DNA from: a virus
Direction: 5' to 3' (one strand)
IMG/VR virus record: IMGVR_UViG_3300047168_000120
Span: 1-64,000 of that record
Length of the DNA: 64,000 bases
In this document: positions 19,467 to 39,271 of the stretch, one piece after another
How positions within the stretch are numbered: position 1 is the stretch's first letter
Layout: each line of letters starts with the position of its first letter
The notes under the pieces: model-generated
What the model saw: the letters and a program-made list of their open reading frames with translations, nothing else
What the model was told of the DNA's origin: nothing
The model's database searches: none
Made by a program: the position numbers and the translations under genes

Positions 19467-19556
19467 TGGCGGAAGGGGTGGGATTTGAACCCACGGTACC
19501 CAAAGGTACGGCAGTTTTCAGGACTGCTGCCATAAACCGGACTCGGCCACCCTTCC
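19467..19556 (-). tRNA. tRNA-Ser (UGA)
   Basis: A complete 90-nt class II tRNA with CCA encoded. The 7-bp acceptor stem GGAAGGG/CCCTTCC is perfect. The anticodon stem GCAGT/ACTGC closes a CCTGAAA loop (anticodon TGA). A long variable arm and a T-loop GGTTCAAATCC are present. The same isoacceptor appears to be the integration target fragment at 20801-20845. Confidence 0.93.
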
Positions 19557-19698
19557 TAGCAAGTAAGGGCGTTACGATCGGTCAGATCTGGAACATGCGC
19601 CCTGAATGATGTTCGCCTGCATCTCTTCCAGAGAAACAGGTTTTCTGCCGGGAACATGCAAAGCGCCTCGCAGCCTGCTTACTGCTGTTCCGGAGACT

Positions 19699-19774
19699 TG
19701 GTGCCGGCGGGGTAGAATCGAACTCCCGACCTTCAACTTACAAGGGTGCTGCACTGCCACTGTGCTACGCCGGC
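19699..19774 (-). tRNA. tRNA-Thr (UGU), slightly irregular
   Basis: 76 nt including CCA. The acceptor stem GCCGGCG/CGCCGGC and a D-arm with 4-bp GCAC/GTGC stem are good. The anticodon loop CTTGTAA gives UGU. The anticodon and T stems each contain a mismatch and there is one extra C near the 3' acceptor strand, so the gene may be decaying or unusually folded. Confidence 0.78.
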
Positions 19775-20193
19775 GCATGGTCAAGCGCCTGTCGTCGTTC
19801 GGGTGGTGAAAGTGCGGGGCAGCATGGGAGCGCTGATAGCCCGGCGCCGAGCGGCGCGCAAGGAAAAAGCCGCCGGGTTGCCCCCGGGAGCTCGTTGTGG
19901 ATGGTTTCGGTGATGATTTGGACGGGACCGCCGTAAGCTACTGCCCGGATATGTGTGGCACGTCCGCCGGATCTGGCTTTGGTTTGCGCGCGCCGGGCCC
20001 CGACAATTTAATGTCAAAATCTGACATTATTATGCGTTTTTCCGACCTTCATTCGCCCGCGGCATAGTATCTCTACGGATGCCAAAACCTTGGCAGAGCC
20101 TCCTTCGTGTCCATCCGTTGCTGCGCGCGTTCGCCTTAGCCTTCACCTTTGTCCGCTGGCGCATCGTAGGCCGGCCGCGCCGCCAAGCCGGTT
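19775..20193. other. Gap between tRNA-Thr and the small - strand gene
   Basis: No convincing gene. It contains a GC-rich stretch and one perfect palindrome (20009-20029, listed separately). Confidence 0.5.
20009..20029. promoter_or_regulatory. Perfect palindrome TAATGTCA-N5-TGACATTA
   Basis: Two perfect 8-bp arms in an AT-rich pocket of a GC-rich region. It does not match the AACACAT operator and may bind a different regulator. No matching regulator can be named. Confidence 0.4.
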
Positions 20194-20376
20194 TTAGGCA
20201 TCTTGAAGCTCACCATCGACGGTATCGTTTCCGTCATCGTCGATAAATTGCTCCGCGATAAGCGACATCGACTTCGCCCATGAAGGAACTTTTTGGTGTT
20301 CGCTGGGATGCGCACTCCTGAGGCCGCAGTCCAAATAGAGCTTGTACCAAATCTCTCGCTCATCAGGATCCAACAA
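20194..20376 (-). CDS. Small acidic hypothetical protein
   Basis: 60 residues from a TTG start with GGAGG 5-9 nt upstream. Begins LDPDEREIWYKLY and ends acidic (DDDGNDTVDG). A - strand promoter with an operator palindrome lies about 260 bp upstream (20636-20655), which supports expression. No family recognised. Confidence 0.5.
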   Translation of the reverse strand: MLDPDEREIWYKLYLDCGLRSAHPSEHQKVPSWAKSMSLIAEQFIDDDGNDTVDGELQDA

Positions 20377-20635
20377 GCAGAACCTCCAGTGTGGGCCGAT
20401 TATCTCCTACGGCCCTTCCCAGCCTTGAAACTTTGCGGGGTACTGGGCTTCTGCTCCCCCTTCGCGCCCTTGACCGACCCCAGCTCCTAACGACGCCCTT
20501 GGCAGCTTCATGCGTCGCAATACCTCAGGTTAGGTGCAATACCAGCATGTGCGCACATGCCCCTGGCTGCTTGTATCCAGCTCGAAATTCCGTCCGTCCG
20601 GCGGCTTCCCAACTATCAACCGGCTGAGGGTTAAT

Positions 20636-20655
20636 AAACACATCTTATTGTGTTT
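20636..20655 (-). promoter_or_regulatory. - strand promoter with operator palindrome in its spacer
   Basis: On the - strand: -35 TTGACT, a 17-nt spacer carrying AAACACAATAAGATGTG, and -10 TTTATT. A further half-site AACACATT lies at 20660-20667. Same architecture as nine other phage promoters here. Confidence 0.65.
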
Positions 20656-20800
20656 AGTCAACACATTTTGAGCACATTCCACATCAGCACTGTGGTCGAA
20701 TCTGTGGACTGTCGCGCGTTTTTAACCGCGCTTATCGCGCAAAAAACACATCAAAATGGTGATTAAGCTGTTGATTTTATTGATTTGGAAACACATGCGT

Positions 20801-20845
20801 CGCGGTTTTCAAGACCGCTGCCTTAAACCACTCGGCCACCTCTCC
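20801..20845 (-). other. Candidate attP: 5' half of a tRNA-Ser(UGA)
   Basis: The - strand reads GGAGAGGTGGCCGAG, a D-arm, and an anticodon stem-loop CGGTCTTGAAAACCG (anticodon TGA), then diverges; there is no variable arm, T-arm or acceptor 3' strand. It lies 35 bp past the integrase stop. A tRNA fragment next to int is the usual sign of a tRNA attachment site. Carrying the 5' rather than 3' half is unusual. Confidence 0.7.
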
Positions 20846-20879: not shown

Positions 20880-21995
20880 CTATTTTCTAACCCGGCGCTC
20901 CGAACTCGTTATTTTCTTCTGTGGTCGAATTTGTGGACTGTCCGAAAACACATCAGAATTGCCGAATCTGGCCGCTTCCTGCTCCTTCTCCGTCAGGTAA
21001 TCAAGGTAGATCTCGGTCGTCTTCACAGAGGTGTGGCCCAGGTGCTTCGACAGCCGATAGATATTGCCGCCGTGTTTCAGCCACCGGATCGCGAACATGT
21101 GCCGCAGGTCATGCAACCGGAAGCGACGGAATTCTACCTTTTCCCGCTGCGCTACGGCGACGCAGCGCCGCATGACATTGCCGAAATCGGAGGAAAAATT
21201 GTCGTATGTCTTGCCGCTCCGGTTGGCGATGAAATAGCCGTTCCTGGTATGGGCCGCTGCCCGGATGATCCCGCCGGCGTCGCCGCCTGGCGTGCGCCAG
21301 GGGAGTGTTCTGGGCCGGTCAGTCTTGGTCCTGGCCAGCAGCAGCTGCTCGCGCTCATGATCGATCTCGGCCAGCTCCAGCGTGACGGCCTCATCCAGCC
21401 TCATGCCGGTCTGCTCCAGCAGCCTGCACATCTCGGCCATGGGAGGCGGCAGCGCTTCGAGAACGCGCTGGTAATCGGCCTCCCGGACCAGCTTAATCGG
21501 GTCGCGCCGTTCCCGGATGATTTTCCGGTCGAACCTGGCCGCGGCGTTCTCCGTGATCCAGCCCCAGGATGCGCAGGCCGACAGCAGCCCCGACAGCGCG
21601 GTGATGTCGCGCCGCAGCGTCGCATTCGTCACCGCGCCGGCCCGGCTGGAGACGTAATCCGCAATCATCTTCCCGTCGATCTGGTCGACGGTCGCGTTGC
21701 CCATCAGCTTCTCCAGCATAGAGATGCTGGTCAAATAGCGGCGTACAACTTGTGGCTTATAGGCCTTGTTTAATACTTCGGCTTCCCAGCGGATGACGGC
21801 TGCTTTGAAACTCGGTGCGGCCGGTTTTGCACTATAGGCGGCTTTTTGCAGCCTGCTTTCCCATTCGTCATAGCGCGTTTTCGCTTCCCGAGCATCACCC
21901 GTGCGTAGGCTTCGTCGATAGCGGCGGCCGGCAATAACGACACGTCCGTACCAAATGCCATCCCTCTTATCGAGATTTTGCTGCTTTCTGGGCAT
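20880..21995 (-). CDS. int: Tyrosine-recombinase integrase
   Basis: 371 residues from ATG at 21995, preceded by GGAG; the longer in-frame start lies inside the excisionase. N-terminal Arm-type DNA-binding region, SAM-like core binding domain, then a catalytic domain with TGMRLDEA (Arg), RTKTDRP (Lys), HDLRH (His/Arg), HLGHTSVKT (His) and the nucleophile Tyr in TEIYLDYL. All catalytic residues are present. The gene reads toward the tRNA-Ser attP fragment. The C-terminal 40 residues are polar and unconserved-looking. Confidence 0.93.
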   Translation of the reverse strand: MPRKQQNLDKRDGIWYGRVVIAGRRYRRSLRTGDAREAKTRYDEWESRLQKAAYSAKPAAPSFKAAVIRWEAEVLNKAYKPQVVRRYLTSISMLEKLMGNATVDQIDGKMIADYVSSRAGAVTNATLRRDITALSGLLSACASWGWITENAAARFDRKIIRERRDPIKLVREADYQRVLEALPPPMAEMCRLLEQTGMRLDEAVTLELAEIDHEREQLLLARTKTDRPRTLPWRTPGGDAGGIIRAAAHTRNGYFIANRSGKTYDNFSSDFGNVMRRCVAVAQREKVEFRRFRLHDLRHMFAIRWLKHGGNIYRLSKHLGHTSVKTTEIYLDYLTEKEQEAARFGNSDVFSDSPQIRPQKKITSSERRVRK

Positions 21996-22174
21996 CGGCG
22001 CTCCTTCGATTTCAGCCAATTTGTTAACATGGCCTTATCGAATGTCCACAGCCGGCCGATCTGGATGGCGCCCGGGATCTGGCCGGCGCGGGCCATTTCC
22101 TGGACCCGGCGGGCCGAATGGGTGATCATCGCCGCCACCTCGGCGGTCGATAGGCGTGCCGCGTGCTCGCTCAC
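21770..22174 (-). CDS. xis: Excisionase-like HTH protein overlapping integrase
   Basis: 134 residues from a GTG that overlaps the preceding stop (GTGA). Residues 7-55 (LSTAEVAAMI, RRVQEMARAGQIPGA, GRLWTFDKAML) form an AlpA/MerR-type winged helix as in phage excisionases. The remaining roughly 78 residues run inside the integrase gene in another frame with no stop, so the two genes overlap by about 226 bases. Whether the basic, Ser/Pro-rich tail (PPIVQNRPHRVSKQP) matters is unknown. Confidence 0.75.
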   Translation of the reverse strand: MSEHAARLSTAEVAAMITHSARRVQEMARAGQIPGAIQIGRLWTFDKAMLTNWLKSKERRCPESSKISIRGMAFGTDVSLLPAAAIDEAYARVMLGKRKRAMTNGKAGCKKPPIVQNRPHRVSKQPSSAGKPKY

Positions 22175-22344: not shown

Positions 22345-22999
22345 CGACATGCTCTCTTTCGGTGTCGAAGGTGATTCTTGCGACATATGGGTTCTCGGCC
22401 CAGCTCTCAGCCCCGTTGATTTTGATCCACAAGCGCTCATAGGCGCGCCGCGGATCGACACGCCATTCCTCCCACGGCCAACCGAAATCATCGGTTCCAG
22501 GATTTCCGTCACGGTCAGGAATGCCCCATTTGACCAGGTTGCCGTCCTTCGTGATGGCTTTAAGCCCCTCGGCGATCGCATCCTGCTTGGTAATGCAATG
22601 CAGCCGCTCGTAACGCACGCTGTTGACATGCTGCGTAAACCGGGACAGGTTTCGCGGCAAAAACATGGCTGGCAGGATCGACCGCTTCCATGGCCATGTA
22701 TCGCATGCGGGTTCCCCGTCCACCAAATAAACGCCACGGTCGCCTACCTTCTGAAGAGCTTCCTTAACCCAAAGTCGCATGCCGACCTCCCAGCGAAGCG
22801 GAATTATTGCTTCGCACCCGGTCTGAAGGCAGATCGTGGTCACGTCACCATTTACCGGGTCGATCTCGATATCGTTCAGATCAGGTGATGCCCATTTCGG
22901 CAGTTTTATCCGCCGGCGGGTTTGCGTCTTCCGGCCCTCGATGAGCGCTTGCATCATCGGCGGTCCATAGGAAATCGGCAGGTTGAATTCCAAGCTCAT
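22322..22999 (-). CDS. ASCH-domain-like phage protein
   Basis: 225 residues. The opening PMMQALIEGRKTQTRR and the later WVKEALQKV and YERLHCITKQDAIAEG motifs match the ASCH-like proteins frequent in phage early regions, predicted to bind RNA or modified nucleotides. Ends by overlapping the small Cys-rich gene. Exact substrate unknown. Confidence 0.7.
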   Translation of the reverse strand: MSLEFNLPISYGPPMMQALIEGRKTQTRRRIKLPKWASPDLNDIEIDPVNGDVTTICLQTGCEAIIPLRWEVGMRLWVKEALQKVGDRGVYLVDGEPACDTWPWKRSILPAMFLPRNLSRFTQHVNSVRYERLHCITKQDAIAEGLKAITKDGNLVKWGIPDRDGNPGTDDFGWPWEEWRVDPRRAYERLWIKINGAESWAENPYVARITFDTEREHVDAWKKAA

Positions 23000-23703
23000 G
23001 CCTTTTCTTCCCCAGGCCCAGCACGAAACTTTGTTTCCCGCGGCGAGGCGCCAAACAGGGATGCCAAATCTTCGAATGTCATTTTGCCCATGATGCGGCC
23101 GGCCACTGGATCGACTTTATCGGCTTCGAATGAATATCCCTCGAATAGCTGCAGCGCGGCGGCCGTCTTATCAACCTCCGCCACGCATTGGAGAATATTT
23201 GCGTTCATCGTGCGAATATCATCGGCAAAAATCATCGCGATAATATCGTCGGAACCGTCTTTTTTGAACCTGGCGCCAAGATCAATCATGAAATCGCGAC
23301 GAGCCTCGATACTGGCGATCTGTGCTTTTACCTGGTCACTGTGGTCAACCAAGTTATTTTTTGCCAAAGCCAGTATATCGTAGGTCAACGGGCCTCGCGG
23401 CGGGTTAGATTCCTGCGCCTTATTCCGCGCGATCTGGGTAGCATTCAGGATCGCGGTCTTGATCCTCATCACGCACTCACTGCGGTTGTTGTCCGGTTCG
23501 GTTTCCGTTGCTTCGCCGGTGGCGTCATATCGCGCCCGGCGATCCTCATCCATCAGGATGTCGTGAGCCAGTTTAATCTCAGAAAACTTCGCCCGGTCGC
23601 CGCCTTTATCTGGATGATGAGTTTTCGCCATAGCGCGATAAGCAGAGCGCACAGCCTCTTTTGAGCAATCCGACCCCAGACCCAAAACCTCGTAGGGATT
23701 CAT
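22996..23703 (-). CDS. DnaJ-domain protein
   Basis: 235 residues from ATG at 23703 (GAGG upstream). Residues 1-65 are a J-domain: NPYEVLGLG, then the HPD motif in HHPDKGG, then helices ending ARYDATG. No Gly/Phe or zinc-finger regions, so it is a J-domain adaptor with its own helical C-terminal part. It probably recruits host DnaK to a phage process. ATGA overlap with the ASCH gene below; the gene above abuts. Confidence 0.85.
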   Translation of the reverse strand: MNPYEVLGLGSDCSKEAVRSAYRAMAKTHHPDKGGDRAKFSEIKLAHDILMDEDRRARYDATGEATETEPDNNRSECVMRIKTAILNATQIARNKAQESNPPRGPLTYDILALAKNNLVDHSDQVKAQIASIEARRDFMIDLGARFKKDGSDDIIAMIFADDIRTMNANILQCVAEVDKTAAALQLFEGYSFEADKVDPVAGRIMGKMTFEDLASLFGASPRETKFRAGPGEEKA

Positions 23704-23993
23704 CTTGCCTCGCATGCATCTAGCGCCTGGCGAGCGCGTTCCATCACGTAAGGATCGTCCAGCGCCGAACTCGCGTCGCCGCGATAGTCTAGGATCTCCT
23801 CCAAGGCCGCTTTGAGCCTGGGAGCTGCAATGGCCAACCGGCAATCCGCTTCCCGATCCGACGGCATGGCAAAATCGTAGAAACCGTTGGCCTTCCCGCC
23901 CATGCAGAGAAGCCACCTCCCGACCATCGACCAGGTCATCGTCCATGGCTCTTTGGAGAGCGGGATTTGCTCAGGCAAAAGGGAGGTTCTCAT
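23700..23993 (-). CDS. Hypothetical early protein
   Basis: 97 residues starting MRTSLLPEQIPLS; the ATG overlaps the HNH stop (ATGA). The central WLLCMGGKANGFYDFAMPSDREADCRLAIAAP and a helical C-terminus resemble short phage early proteins of unknown function. The longer in-frame start is inside the HNH gene. Confidence 0.65.
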   Translation of the reverse strand: MRTSLLPEQIPLSKEPWTMTWSMVGRWLLCMGGKANGFYDFAMPSDREADCRLAIAAPRLKAALEEILDYRGDASSALDDPYVMERARQALDACEAR

Positions 23994-28222: not shown

Positions 28223-29769
28223 CAGCCGGGGGCCGGAATCCCGAGGGCCTGCGACCTGGCGCTGATTTCCTTATAGGCCAGGATTTTCGGTTTGGTCAGC
28301 ATACCATTCAAGACTTCCTGATTGACCCGGCGCCATTCAGCCATCTGCTCAGGCGTTTTGATTTCGGCGAGGGCCTGCCGGAATGTGGTGATAATCTCGG
28401 CCTCATTGGTGCGGCCGGTCGGCAGCTCTACCACCTTCGCTTCCCATTTATCACTGCGCGACGCTTCAGCGCCCTGATTGTCATCGGAGGCATGCTGCGC
28501 CTGCCCTTGGCCGCCATAGCCAAGGGCGGCCATGATTTTGGTCGTGTCCGGATCTTCCATCGCGGTCAGGATGTGGTCGGAATTGTGCTCGTTATAGGCA
28601 TTGATCATATCGGGAGGCACGTCCCGGAAATGGTCCGCGAATTCCTTGGCCCAATCGACGATGTTGATCGCGTCGAGCAAAACTTCACCATCGGCCGATA
28701 TCAGTTGAAAGGTCTGCCGATCTTCCTCGTCGGGAAAGCGATCCTTCGGCGGTTCGTGCTGAGAGGAAGGGTCCCGCGCCGGCGCGGTCGTCCGGGCCGA
28801 CTCATGCTTCGCCGGCGCTTTGGCGCCCTGCTGCGCATTGCCAGACGCCTGAGAGGCCGGATTTTTGGATGCGACCTTCTCGGCCTGCACGTCGACCACC
28901 GGCGGCTTGAACCCAAAATCGTGCAGCGTGGCGCCTGGCGAATAGGTCAATTCCCGGTTGCCAAGACGCAAATCGCCGGCCGCGCCGCCATAGCTAAGCC
29001 GCCCGGCTTCCGCCAGATTATCGATGTAGGCCGCATGATAAAGCTGCTCGCTGGACTTCGGCAAATCCTTGAGAAGTTGCTTCATGATCGTTTTGCGGGC
29101 CATGGCATATTCAAATTTGACCCAGACGCATTTGTCCCAAATGTAGGACATTTTATCGCGCATCGAGTAGGCGAATTTATACGCTTCGGAGTCGTTCCGG
29201 ATTTCGAGAATATCCGCATAATCCCAATAGACAAATGCCTGACCCCCGCCTTTCAGTTTGGCATGGCAATACGCCTTCTCCGGCGTCCGGCCGCGCCGCG
29301 AGCCTCGGGAGATGTGCTTCAGATGGGCATCAGAGCCATATTCCGCCTCGAAAAGGTCGCCCTCATAAACCACGTCGGCGTGAATGCTTTCCAGCGTGTC
29401 GGCGCGGTAGGCCAGCGTGAGCATGCCCTGATAGCCAATCTGCGGGTCAAGGGTGACCTTTTCATTGGCCTTCCCCTTGTTTTTAATCCGGGGAATAATC
29501 CAGGCATGCCCAAACGGCGTGTTCGGCCGTAGCCCAAGCTCAGCCAGGTCGAGCGCGCACCGGATCAGCTCCCACAGGTCCGCCAGCTTGAACAGCTCGT
29601 CTTCGCGCGTCAGGTTGCGGATCGTGGCCAAATACTGGACGGCATCAAGGCGGTCCCCAAGCGCATTCTGGAACCGTTTGATGACTTCGGGATGATCAAC
29701 CGCCTCGTCGAGCGATTTGATTTCCTTGAGCGGCTTGTATTGATGCAGGCGTGGGATGGCTTCGGACAT
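28222..29769 (-). CDS. recT: RecT-family single-strand annealing protein
   Basis: 515 residues. Residues 1-290 hold the RecT signature: LGDRLDAVQYLATIRN, LGLRPNTPFGHAWIIPR, GYQGMLTLAYR, and the later ARKTIMKQLLKDLPKS. The C-terminal 220 residues are an Ala/Gln/Glu linker and a helical tail not seen in short RecT proteins. It would pair complementary strands in phage recombination. No RecE-type exonuclease is adjacent; the VRR-NUC protein at 42393 is the only obvious nuclease partner. Confidence 0.9.
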   Translation of the reverse strand: MSEAIPRLHQYKPLKEIKSLDEAVDHPEVIKRFQNALGDRLDAVQYLATIRNLTREDELFKLADLWELIRCALDLAELGLRPNTPFGHAWIIPRIKNKGKANEKVTLDPQIGYQGMLTLAYRADTLESIHADVVYEGDLFEAEYGSDAHLKHISRGSRRGRTPEKAYCHAKLKGGGQAFVYWDYADILEIRNDSEAYKFAYSMRDKMSYIWDKCVWVKFEYAMARKTIMKQLLKDLPKSSEQLYHAAYIDNLAEAGRLSYGGAAGDLRLGNRELTYSPGATLHDFGFKPPVVDVQAEKVASKNPASQASGNAQQGAKAPAKHESARTTAPARDPSSQHEPPKDRFPDEEDRQTFQLISADGEVLLDAINIVDWAKEFADHFRDVPPDMINAYNEHNSDHILTAMEDPDTTKIMAALGYGGQGQAQHASDDNQGAEASRSDKWEAKVVELPTGRTNEAEIITTFRQALAEIKTPEQMAEWRRVNQEVLNGMLTKPKILAYKEISARSQALGIPAPG

Positions 29770-31009: not shown

Positions 31010-31042
31010 TGAAAAACCCCCGAGGCCGAAGCCCCGGGGGTT
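31010..31042 (-). terminator. Rho-independent terminator with UUCG loop
   Basis: On the - strand a 12-bp stem (AACCCCCGGGGC with GCCTCGGGGGTT, one G-T pair) closes a TTCG loop and is followed by TTTTTC. It ends the small-gene operon running from 39.1 kb. Confidence 0.85.
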
Positions 31043-31090
31043 GATAGCTGCCGCAAATGCGGCGACGGCAGGAATTGCTCGGTGTATGCC

Positions 31091-31333
31091 TTACAATTTG
31101 GTGTGCGGGACCAGCGACTGATTCAGCAGGGCGGCCAAGCGCTCCTGGCGCTCAGCATGGCGCACACCTTCCGCCTCAGCGGCCGGTATGCCCTTGTTGA
31201 TCAGATCGGCAATCGCGGTCGCCATAAACGAGTTGTCGCACATGGCGATCGCCTCGCCGTTGCGGTTCTGCACGATAGCTCCATTTGCCGTAACGGGCGT
31301 TTGAACCGTCGCGATGACGTCTAAATAGCTCAT
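31091..31333 (-). CDS. Small early protein
   Basis: 80 residues, ATG after TGAGGAGAAAAAC. Starts MSYLDVIATVQTPV; a mid segment NRNGEAIAMCDNSFMATAIAD. Last gene of the cassette-separated cluster, before the UUCG terminator. No family recognised. Confidence 0.68.
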   Translation of the reverse strand: MSYLDVIATVQTPVTANGAIVQNRNGEAIAMCDNSFMATAIADLINKGIPAAEAEGVRHAERQERLAALLNQSLVPHTKL

Positions 31334-39173: not shown

Positions 39174-39224
39174 TATAATGATTCCGGTTCCAAAATCAAG
39201 ATAAAAACACATTTTAATGTGGTT
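39174..39224. promoter_or_regulatory. Divergent early control region with operator
   Basis: On the - strand: TTGCTA, 17-nt spacer ACCACATTAAAATGTGT, then TTTTAT, for the leftward small-gene operon. On the + strand a consensus -10 TATAAT (39174-39179) could start the helicase transcript, with the operator just downstream. Confidence 0.62.
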
Positions 39225-39271
39225 AGCAATGTGCCATAAACCCGCCACCACAACGAAAAAGGATGCCGATA

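Follow-up and report, generated by a model that had tools for sequence, protein, structure and literature searches.

A temperate siphovirus with an attP made from the 5′ half of tRNA-Ser(UGA) and a complete tRNA-Ser(UGA) close by

Introduction

Why would a phage whose attachment site appears to be half of a tRNA-Ser(UGA) gene also carry a complete tRNA-Ser(UGA)? The locus in question lies in a window of 64,000 nt, bases 1-64000 of a 95,520-base IMG/VR virus record that has no end overlap. The original prediction held that the fragment is an attP, that integration would leave the rebuilt host gene behind phage sequence and possibly without its promoter, and that the phage may supply the isoacceptor that its own integration impairs. 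A search for attL and attR in lysogens was proposed as a check. The idea of compensation has already been published as tRNA-dependent lysogeny for the actinobacteriophages Fionnbharth, LeBron and Gaia, in which a phage tRNA compensates for the tRNA lost on integration; their cores span 8-17 bp and do not rebuild a tRNA (Guerrero-Bustamante and Hatfull 2024, PMC10865867). We analysed the attachment region, its integrase and related phages with respect to these claims.

Results

The window contains siphovirus genes for a tape measure protein, a J-like tail fibre, a terminase, a portal, a DnaB-like helicase, a RecT-like protein and a tyrosine integrase. The attP is unbroken and lies between the integrase and the tail genes, showing that the window phage is an episomal temperate siphovirus. 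Another IMG/VR contig, L006, with 99.995% identity over 20 kb, contains the same region including the tRNAs and the unbroken attP. The two sequences diverge at window position 31041 (L006:979), adjoining a 92% identical repeat at 31086-31284, and this point may be a variable site or an assembly break. The early region of the phage also encodes a DnaJ-domain protein (22996-23946, minus strand). A scan of genome contigs for a host or lysogen of the window phage returned only an unrelated integrase (26% identity) in a Lentisphaerae MAG. The features of the attachment region are listed in Table 1.

Table 1. Features of the attachment region, in window coordinates.
Feature	Position	Strand	Evidence and remarks
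Complete tRNA-Ser(UGA)	19467-19556	-	ARAGORN; RF00005 51.8 bits, E 3.5e-9; fold z -2.7
Complete tRNA-Thr(UGU)	19699-19774	-	ARAGORN; RF00005 49.4 bits; fold
Terminator-like hairpin, CCGGGGGCAACCCGG + CGGCTTTTTC	19873-19887	-	Hairpin count at chance level; upstream of tRNA-Thr
Weak promoter-like site, TTGACT-17-TTTATT	20633-20661	-	Score 10.2, shuffle p 0.10; no evidence of function
Putative arm-type site, far side	20690-20713	-	24-bp direct repeat; +107 from loop; holds CACAGATTCGACCACA at 20691-20706
Inferred crossover core, anticodon arm GCGGT-CTTGAAA-ACCGC	20802-20818	-	Sequence; same arm in the 20-nt repeat flanking G001
attP half-gene, 44-nt tRNA-Ser(UGA) 5′ half	20802-20845	-	Exact match to intact tRNA-Ser(UGA) genes; RF00005 sub-threshold
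Tyrosine integrase, 379 aa from TTG	20880-22019	-	PF00589 E 5.9e-17; phrog_1 E 9.4e-49; HDLRH and GH...Y conserved
Putative arm-type site, integrase side	20919-20942	-	24-bp direct repeat; -122 from loop; holds CACAAATTCGACCACA at 20920-20935
Small HTH_17 protein	21770-22174	-	PF12728 E 8.2e-8; just upstream of and overlapping int

The complete tRNA-Ser(UGA), hereafter the spare, has an encoded CCA end and the anticodon arm GCAGT-CCTGAAA-ACTGC. It lies 1,246 nt from the 5′ half, and both have the same orientation, as in the original prediction of a complete gene 1.2 kb from the fragment. It is identical to the host-type tRNA of the related prophage G001 at 71 of 92 aligned positions. An Rfam match to a plastid 3′ UTR over this gene was rejected as a tRNA cross-match. 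U33 is nearly universal in tRNA anticodon loops. In the loop CCTGAAA of the spare, position 33 is C and not U, and this change may weaken the tRNA. A C33 tRNA-Ser(UGA) occurs in at least 12 other viral contigs (within L030-L079), and U33 is the common form, found at 70 of 80 loci among the matches listed. The tRNA-Thr(UGU), absent from the original prediction, sits between the spare and the 5′ half. Its CCA end is encoded and its anticodon stem is poorly paired with mismatches; it may be degraded or of unusual function. A tRNA-Met(CAU) is present at 65773-65845 of the same record, beyond the window. The phage tRNAs adjoin attP and are oriented against the late genes. In the phage, UCA accounts for 11% of Ser codons and ACA for 13% of Thr codons.

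The 44-nt half is identical to the first 44 nt of the intact tRNA-Ser(UGA) genes in L007, L009 and L011 and to the host half in L010, and is therefore not a chance resemblance. L007 and L009, which are phage contigs with tRNA sets, and L011 were rejected as att sites because their 44-nt match is an intact tRNA-Ser(UGA). Beyond the anticodon arm, the sequence following the half-gene is that of the phage and no longer tRNA. This arm, whose 7-nt loop is at 20807-20813, is a typical att core. The integrase gene is directed towards the half-gene, and 34 nt separate the two. A 24-bp direct repeat lies on either side of the half-gene, at 20690 and 20919, and each copy contains the tandem CACA-N8-CACA. 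In the whole 95.5-kb record there are only four copies of this tandem, two of them at attP; the other two (28572-28587 and 39218-39233, minus strand) are far from it, and the first of these very closely resembles the arm sequence at attP. In relatives the tandem is found at about -107/+108 (G001, L022) and -94/+107 (L024). The arrangement resembles the arm-core-arm layout expected for a lambda-like integrase, and the repeats are probably arm-type sites. The region 20802-20845 is almost certainly the attP of the window phage, as originally proposed, and the adjacent integrase, the flanking repeat and the spaced tandems go beyond the evidence given for that proposal.

The integrase scored 62.4 bits against PF00589, for which the cut-off is 27.1. 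The catalytic residues R207, H303, R306, H329 and Y338 are conserved with P0002 (R...HxxR...H...Y). The small HTH_17 protein is a possible excisionase on the basis of its domain and position, and an HTH-like ORF is also found upstream of int in L221. The window integrase is 31-32% identical to that of G001, compared with 55-73% for L022, L023 and L024, and with 32% identity the window phage is therefore a distant member of the group. The tree of integrases places the window together with L227 and L221, with moderate support (86/93) and on a long branch.

A pattern scan for the 44-nt half retrieved the contig IMGVR_UViG_3300025913_000377 (G001), which holds the tRNA-Ser(UGA) half twice. At one end, a host 5′ half (L010:884-927) is followed by phage DNA, and the ORF before it, in our reading, resembles a bacterial cell-wall hydrolase. 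At the other end, int is followed by 77 nt, an intact tRNA-Ser(UGA) (L012:14273-14362) and then bacterial amidase and DoxX genes. Between the host and the phage 5′ half, 6 of 44 positions differ and the final 20 nt are the same; these 20 nt form the direct repeat that flanks G001 and include the same anticodon arm as the window core. Crossover therefore took place within the anticodon-arm part, so that the rebuilt tRNA uses the phage 5′ half, and the promoter and 5′ half of the host gene are left stranded. Rebuilding away from the promoter, as the original prediction foresaw, is thus seen directly in a related prophage. The attL and attR of the window phage itself are modelled on those of G001; the search for such junctions found them in tRNA-Ser(UGA) for this relative and for no lysogen of the window phage. 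By analogy, integration of the window phage would very probably restore the tRNA in sequence and displace its promoter.

Promoters were sought by E. coli rules for sigma70-like sites, with p values from shuffled sequences, and these may not be the rules of the window phage's host. In the 110 nt before the window half, no sigma70-like promoter was found by these rules (shuffle p 0.92), which is in line with the suggestion that the rebuilt copy may be promoterless. The rebuilt gene would therefore need read-through from int or a promoter invisible to the scan. In G001, L022 and L205, an extended -10 with a weak -35 precedes the half or rebuilt gene within the phage DNA (TTGCAG-16-TATAGT, TTGCAA-16-TAAGAT and TTGCAG-16-TATGAT; shuffle p 0.002, 0.018 and 0.014, respectively). 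In all three (3/3) the site ends 28 nt before the tRNA start, and this agreement is partly a matter of descent because the integrases are close relatives. L024 has no visible promoter before its half in the same scan either, and it also lacks a spare tRNA. In the window, the weak promoter-like site lies on the far side of attP and reads towards tRNA-Thr and tRNA-Ser, and both this site and the terminator-like hairpin are located between attP and the phage tRNAs.

Free 5′-half attPs were found behind related integrases in L022, L205, L024 and L025. The same tRNA-Ser(UGA) anticodon arm is used with opposite halves, the 3′ half in L210, L214, L219, L220 and L224 and the 5′ half in the window, L021, L022, L205 and L024. 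None of the 5′-half records G001, G007, G009, G010 and G011, which are possibly incomplete, contains an intact spare tRNA-Ser, and no spare tRNA-Ser(UGA) was seen in the 3′-half integrase relatives. The intact tRNA-Ser(UGA) of G017 was rejected as a spare, being read as the rebuilt junction of a 3′-half prophage. Because the 5′-half relatives lack a spare, and a promoter-like site precedes the rebuilt gene in three of them, a spare tRNA-Ser(UGA) is not generally needed for 5′-half sites.

L221 and its near-copy L229 show another arrangement. Behind int they have a short anticodon-arm core (ACCGGTCTTGAAAACCG), a complete tRNA-Ser(UGA) and then phage genes such as that for a dNMP kinase (DNMK). 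The tRNA-Ser(UGA) is their sole tRNA and lies within the att region (L221:5200-5405). Measured from the short core, the arm tandems of L221 lie at -125 and +186, as though the tRNA had entered between the core and the far arm. The loop of the complete tRNA appears to fit the far arm too, and this tRNA could itself be the core. L221 and L229 are, judged from this layout, candidates for tRNA-dependent lysogeny outside actinobacteriophages. In the integrase tree, both lineages that have a complete tRNA-Ser(UGA) by their att region branch close to each other, which is suggestive with an effective n of 2.

L208 and L212 were rejected as short-core sites since, on the reverse strand, they are 5′ halves of tRNA-Ser(GCU). 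These halves, which lie beyond the core within 200 nt after the end of int and are preceded by a TTGAC-like sequence, represent a further 5′-half type with the orientation opposite to int. A tRNA-Thr(CGU) 5′ half with a promoter-like site ahead follows the integrase at L230:3494-3540; this integrase forms a very long branch.

Discussion

From the integrated relative, the following course of events can be proposed. Recombination by the integrase would take place between attP and the host tRNA-Ser(UGA), at the anticodon loop of the latter. At one junction, the host promoter and host 5′ half would read into phage DNA; at the other, the phage 5′ half and the host 3′ half would together make an intact tRNA, 34 nt downstream of int and off its native promoter. 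The rebuilt copy would, with less certainty, have no clear promoter of its own and depend on int read-through or an atypical promoter. The phage tRNA-Thr and tRNA-Ser would then be on the side of the host promoter, about 1.0 and 1.25 kb in and in the promoter's orientation, and the spare might secure the supply of the isoacceptor, which is also a less certain step. Taken as a whole, the chain from attP through restoration with promoter displacement to a spare kept as insurance has somewhat less than an even chance of being right, and its weight falls on the first parts.

The insurance role as such is a tentative reading of the sequence comparisons. It is favoured because the window half lacks a promoter-like site (p 0.92), in contrast to G001, L022 and L205 (p 0.002-0.018), and because the sister L221/L229 pairs a short core with a complete tRNA-Ser(UGA) in its att region. 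It is disfavoured because the restoring 44-nt core should make a spare unnecessary, because five related 5′-half records have none, and because a terminator-like hairpin intervenes and the spare has C33. In addition, insurance would leave the carriage of tRNA-Thr and tRNA-Met unexplained, and L024 does without both promoter and spare. The compensation in the original prediction thus gained from the sister phage as a possible role; as a necessity it was not supported, given the relatives without a spare, the promoter-like sites in three of them and the restoring core. Other roles of phage tRNAs have been proposed. The 5′-half attP may be real and tRNA-Ser, tRNA-Thr and tRNA-Met ordinary cargo for lytic translation or for replacing host tRNAs cut by nucleases, with a coincidental isoacceptor match and C33 as nuclease evasion; we regard this as a serious alternative, though not a probable one. 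It is in keeping with the absence of a spare from five relatives and with the fact that two of the three tRNAs are unrelated to the target. With three tRNAs and about 40 anticodons, we estimate the likelihood of a chance match at roughly 5-10%. Twelve further viral tRNA-Ser(UGA) genes also have C33, a minority compared with U33, and anticodon-loop changes in phage tRNAs have been proposed as evasion of anticodon nucleases (PMC10264068). However, the sister L221/L229 also has a complete tRNA-Ser(UGA) in its att region and carries no other tRNA, and the tRNAs of the window adjoin attP, running with the displaced host promoter and opposite to the late genes.

In true tRNA-dependent lysogeny, the rebuilt copy would be silent and the phage tRNA-Ser essential in lysogens. 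The cognate isoacceptor, the lack of a visible promoter before the rebuilt gene and the short core of the sister phage would agree with this, but the 44-nt core restores the tRNA where the defining cores have 8-17 bp (PMC10865867), the 44/44 identity to intact genes suggests that the rebuilt tRNA is in use, and int transcription may read through. This makes a silent rebuilt copy quite improbable. Far less credible still is that the 44-nt fragment is a decayed tRNA or chance remnant and no attP. Its RF00005 score is just below threshold and no lysogen of the window phage is at hand, but the integrase is 34 nt away, the arm repeats are at matched distances, and several related phages have the same layout, with one integrated example. 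An exchange of promoters might also be considered, in which control of the rebuilt host tRNA passes to the phage (int) and the displaced host promoter drives the phage tRNA-Ser(UGA), so that UCA decoding in the lysogen depends on the prophage. The window phage would then be an evolutionary intermediate on the way from tRNA restoration to full tRNA-dependent lysogeny, with the core already shortened in L221/L229, and the altered anticodon arm of the spare, in which the loop reads CCTGAAA and not CTTGAAA and the stem also differs, would make the spare unfit as an integrase target. This reading is unlikely, and avoidance of the phage's own integrase, whose core overlap would be CTTGAAA, is speculation as an account of the loop change.

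The preferred reading, restoration with promoter displacement and a spare that may act as insurance, concerns a general point: an element that uses a 5′-half site has to provide for expression of a tRNA that is usually essential. Among the integrase relatives, 5′-half, 3′-half and short-core-plus-spare arrangements are all found for one tRNA-Ser(UGA). This set makes the origin of tRNA-dependent lysogeny from restoring systems, a stated open question, directly testable, and it adds candidates beyond the actinobacteriophages, in which such lysogeny has been shown.

Several known systems share parts of this arrangement. In the canonical 3′-half attP of most tRNA-targeting phages, a tRNA gene likewise serves as attB and is rebuilt, in some with an anticodon-arm core, but the host promoter stays on the rebuilt gene, whereas the 5′ half of the window would not leave it there. 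A review citing Williams 2002 describes the 5′-half situation as seldom encountered in bacteria (PMC8371274). The suicidal pTN3-like integrases of archaea use a 41-bp core that is a tRNA 5′ half, and the rebuilt tRNA is cut off from the original promoter (Cossu 2017, PMC5495485). The window resembles them in the 5′-half core and, going by G001, probably in restoration that displaces the promoter, but their attP is inside int, which is split on integration, whereas the window attP is outside int (int ends at 20880, the half at 20845). G001, L022, L205 and L024 have a related integrase, a tRNA-Ser(UGA) 5′-half site directly downstream of int and similar arm sites; unlike the window, all four lack a spare tRNA, and in G001, L022 and L205 a promoter-like site precedes the half. 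With tRNA-dependent lysogeny the window shares a tyrosine integrase, an attB in a host tRNA gene (inferred from G001 for the window) and a complete phage tRNA of the same isoacceptor. The core of tRNA-dependent lysogeny is short and non-restoring, whereas that of the window is a 44-nt half through the whole anticodon arm, and we do not file it under that heading. In Table 2 of PMC10865867, no tRNA-reconstructing phage carries a cognate tRNA, whereas the window has both a restoring half and a cognate tRNA. It is therefore classed as a 5′-half attP accompanied by a spare cognate tRNA, which blends, in an unusual manner, two known ways of sparing the host tRNA. The window phage is best described as a hybrid of, or an intermediate between, 5′-half restoration and tRNA-dependent lysogeny, in which the role of the spare is plausible and unproven.
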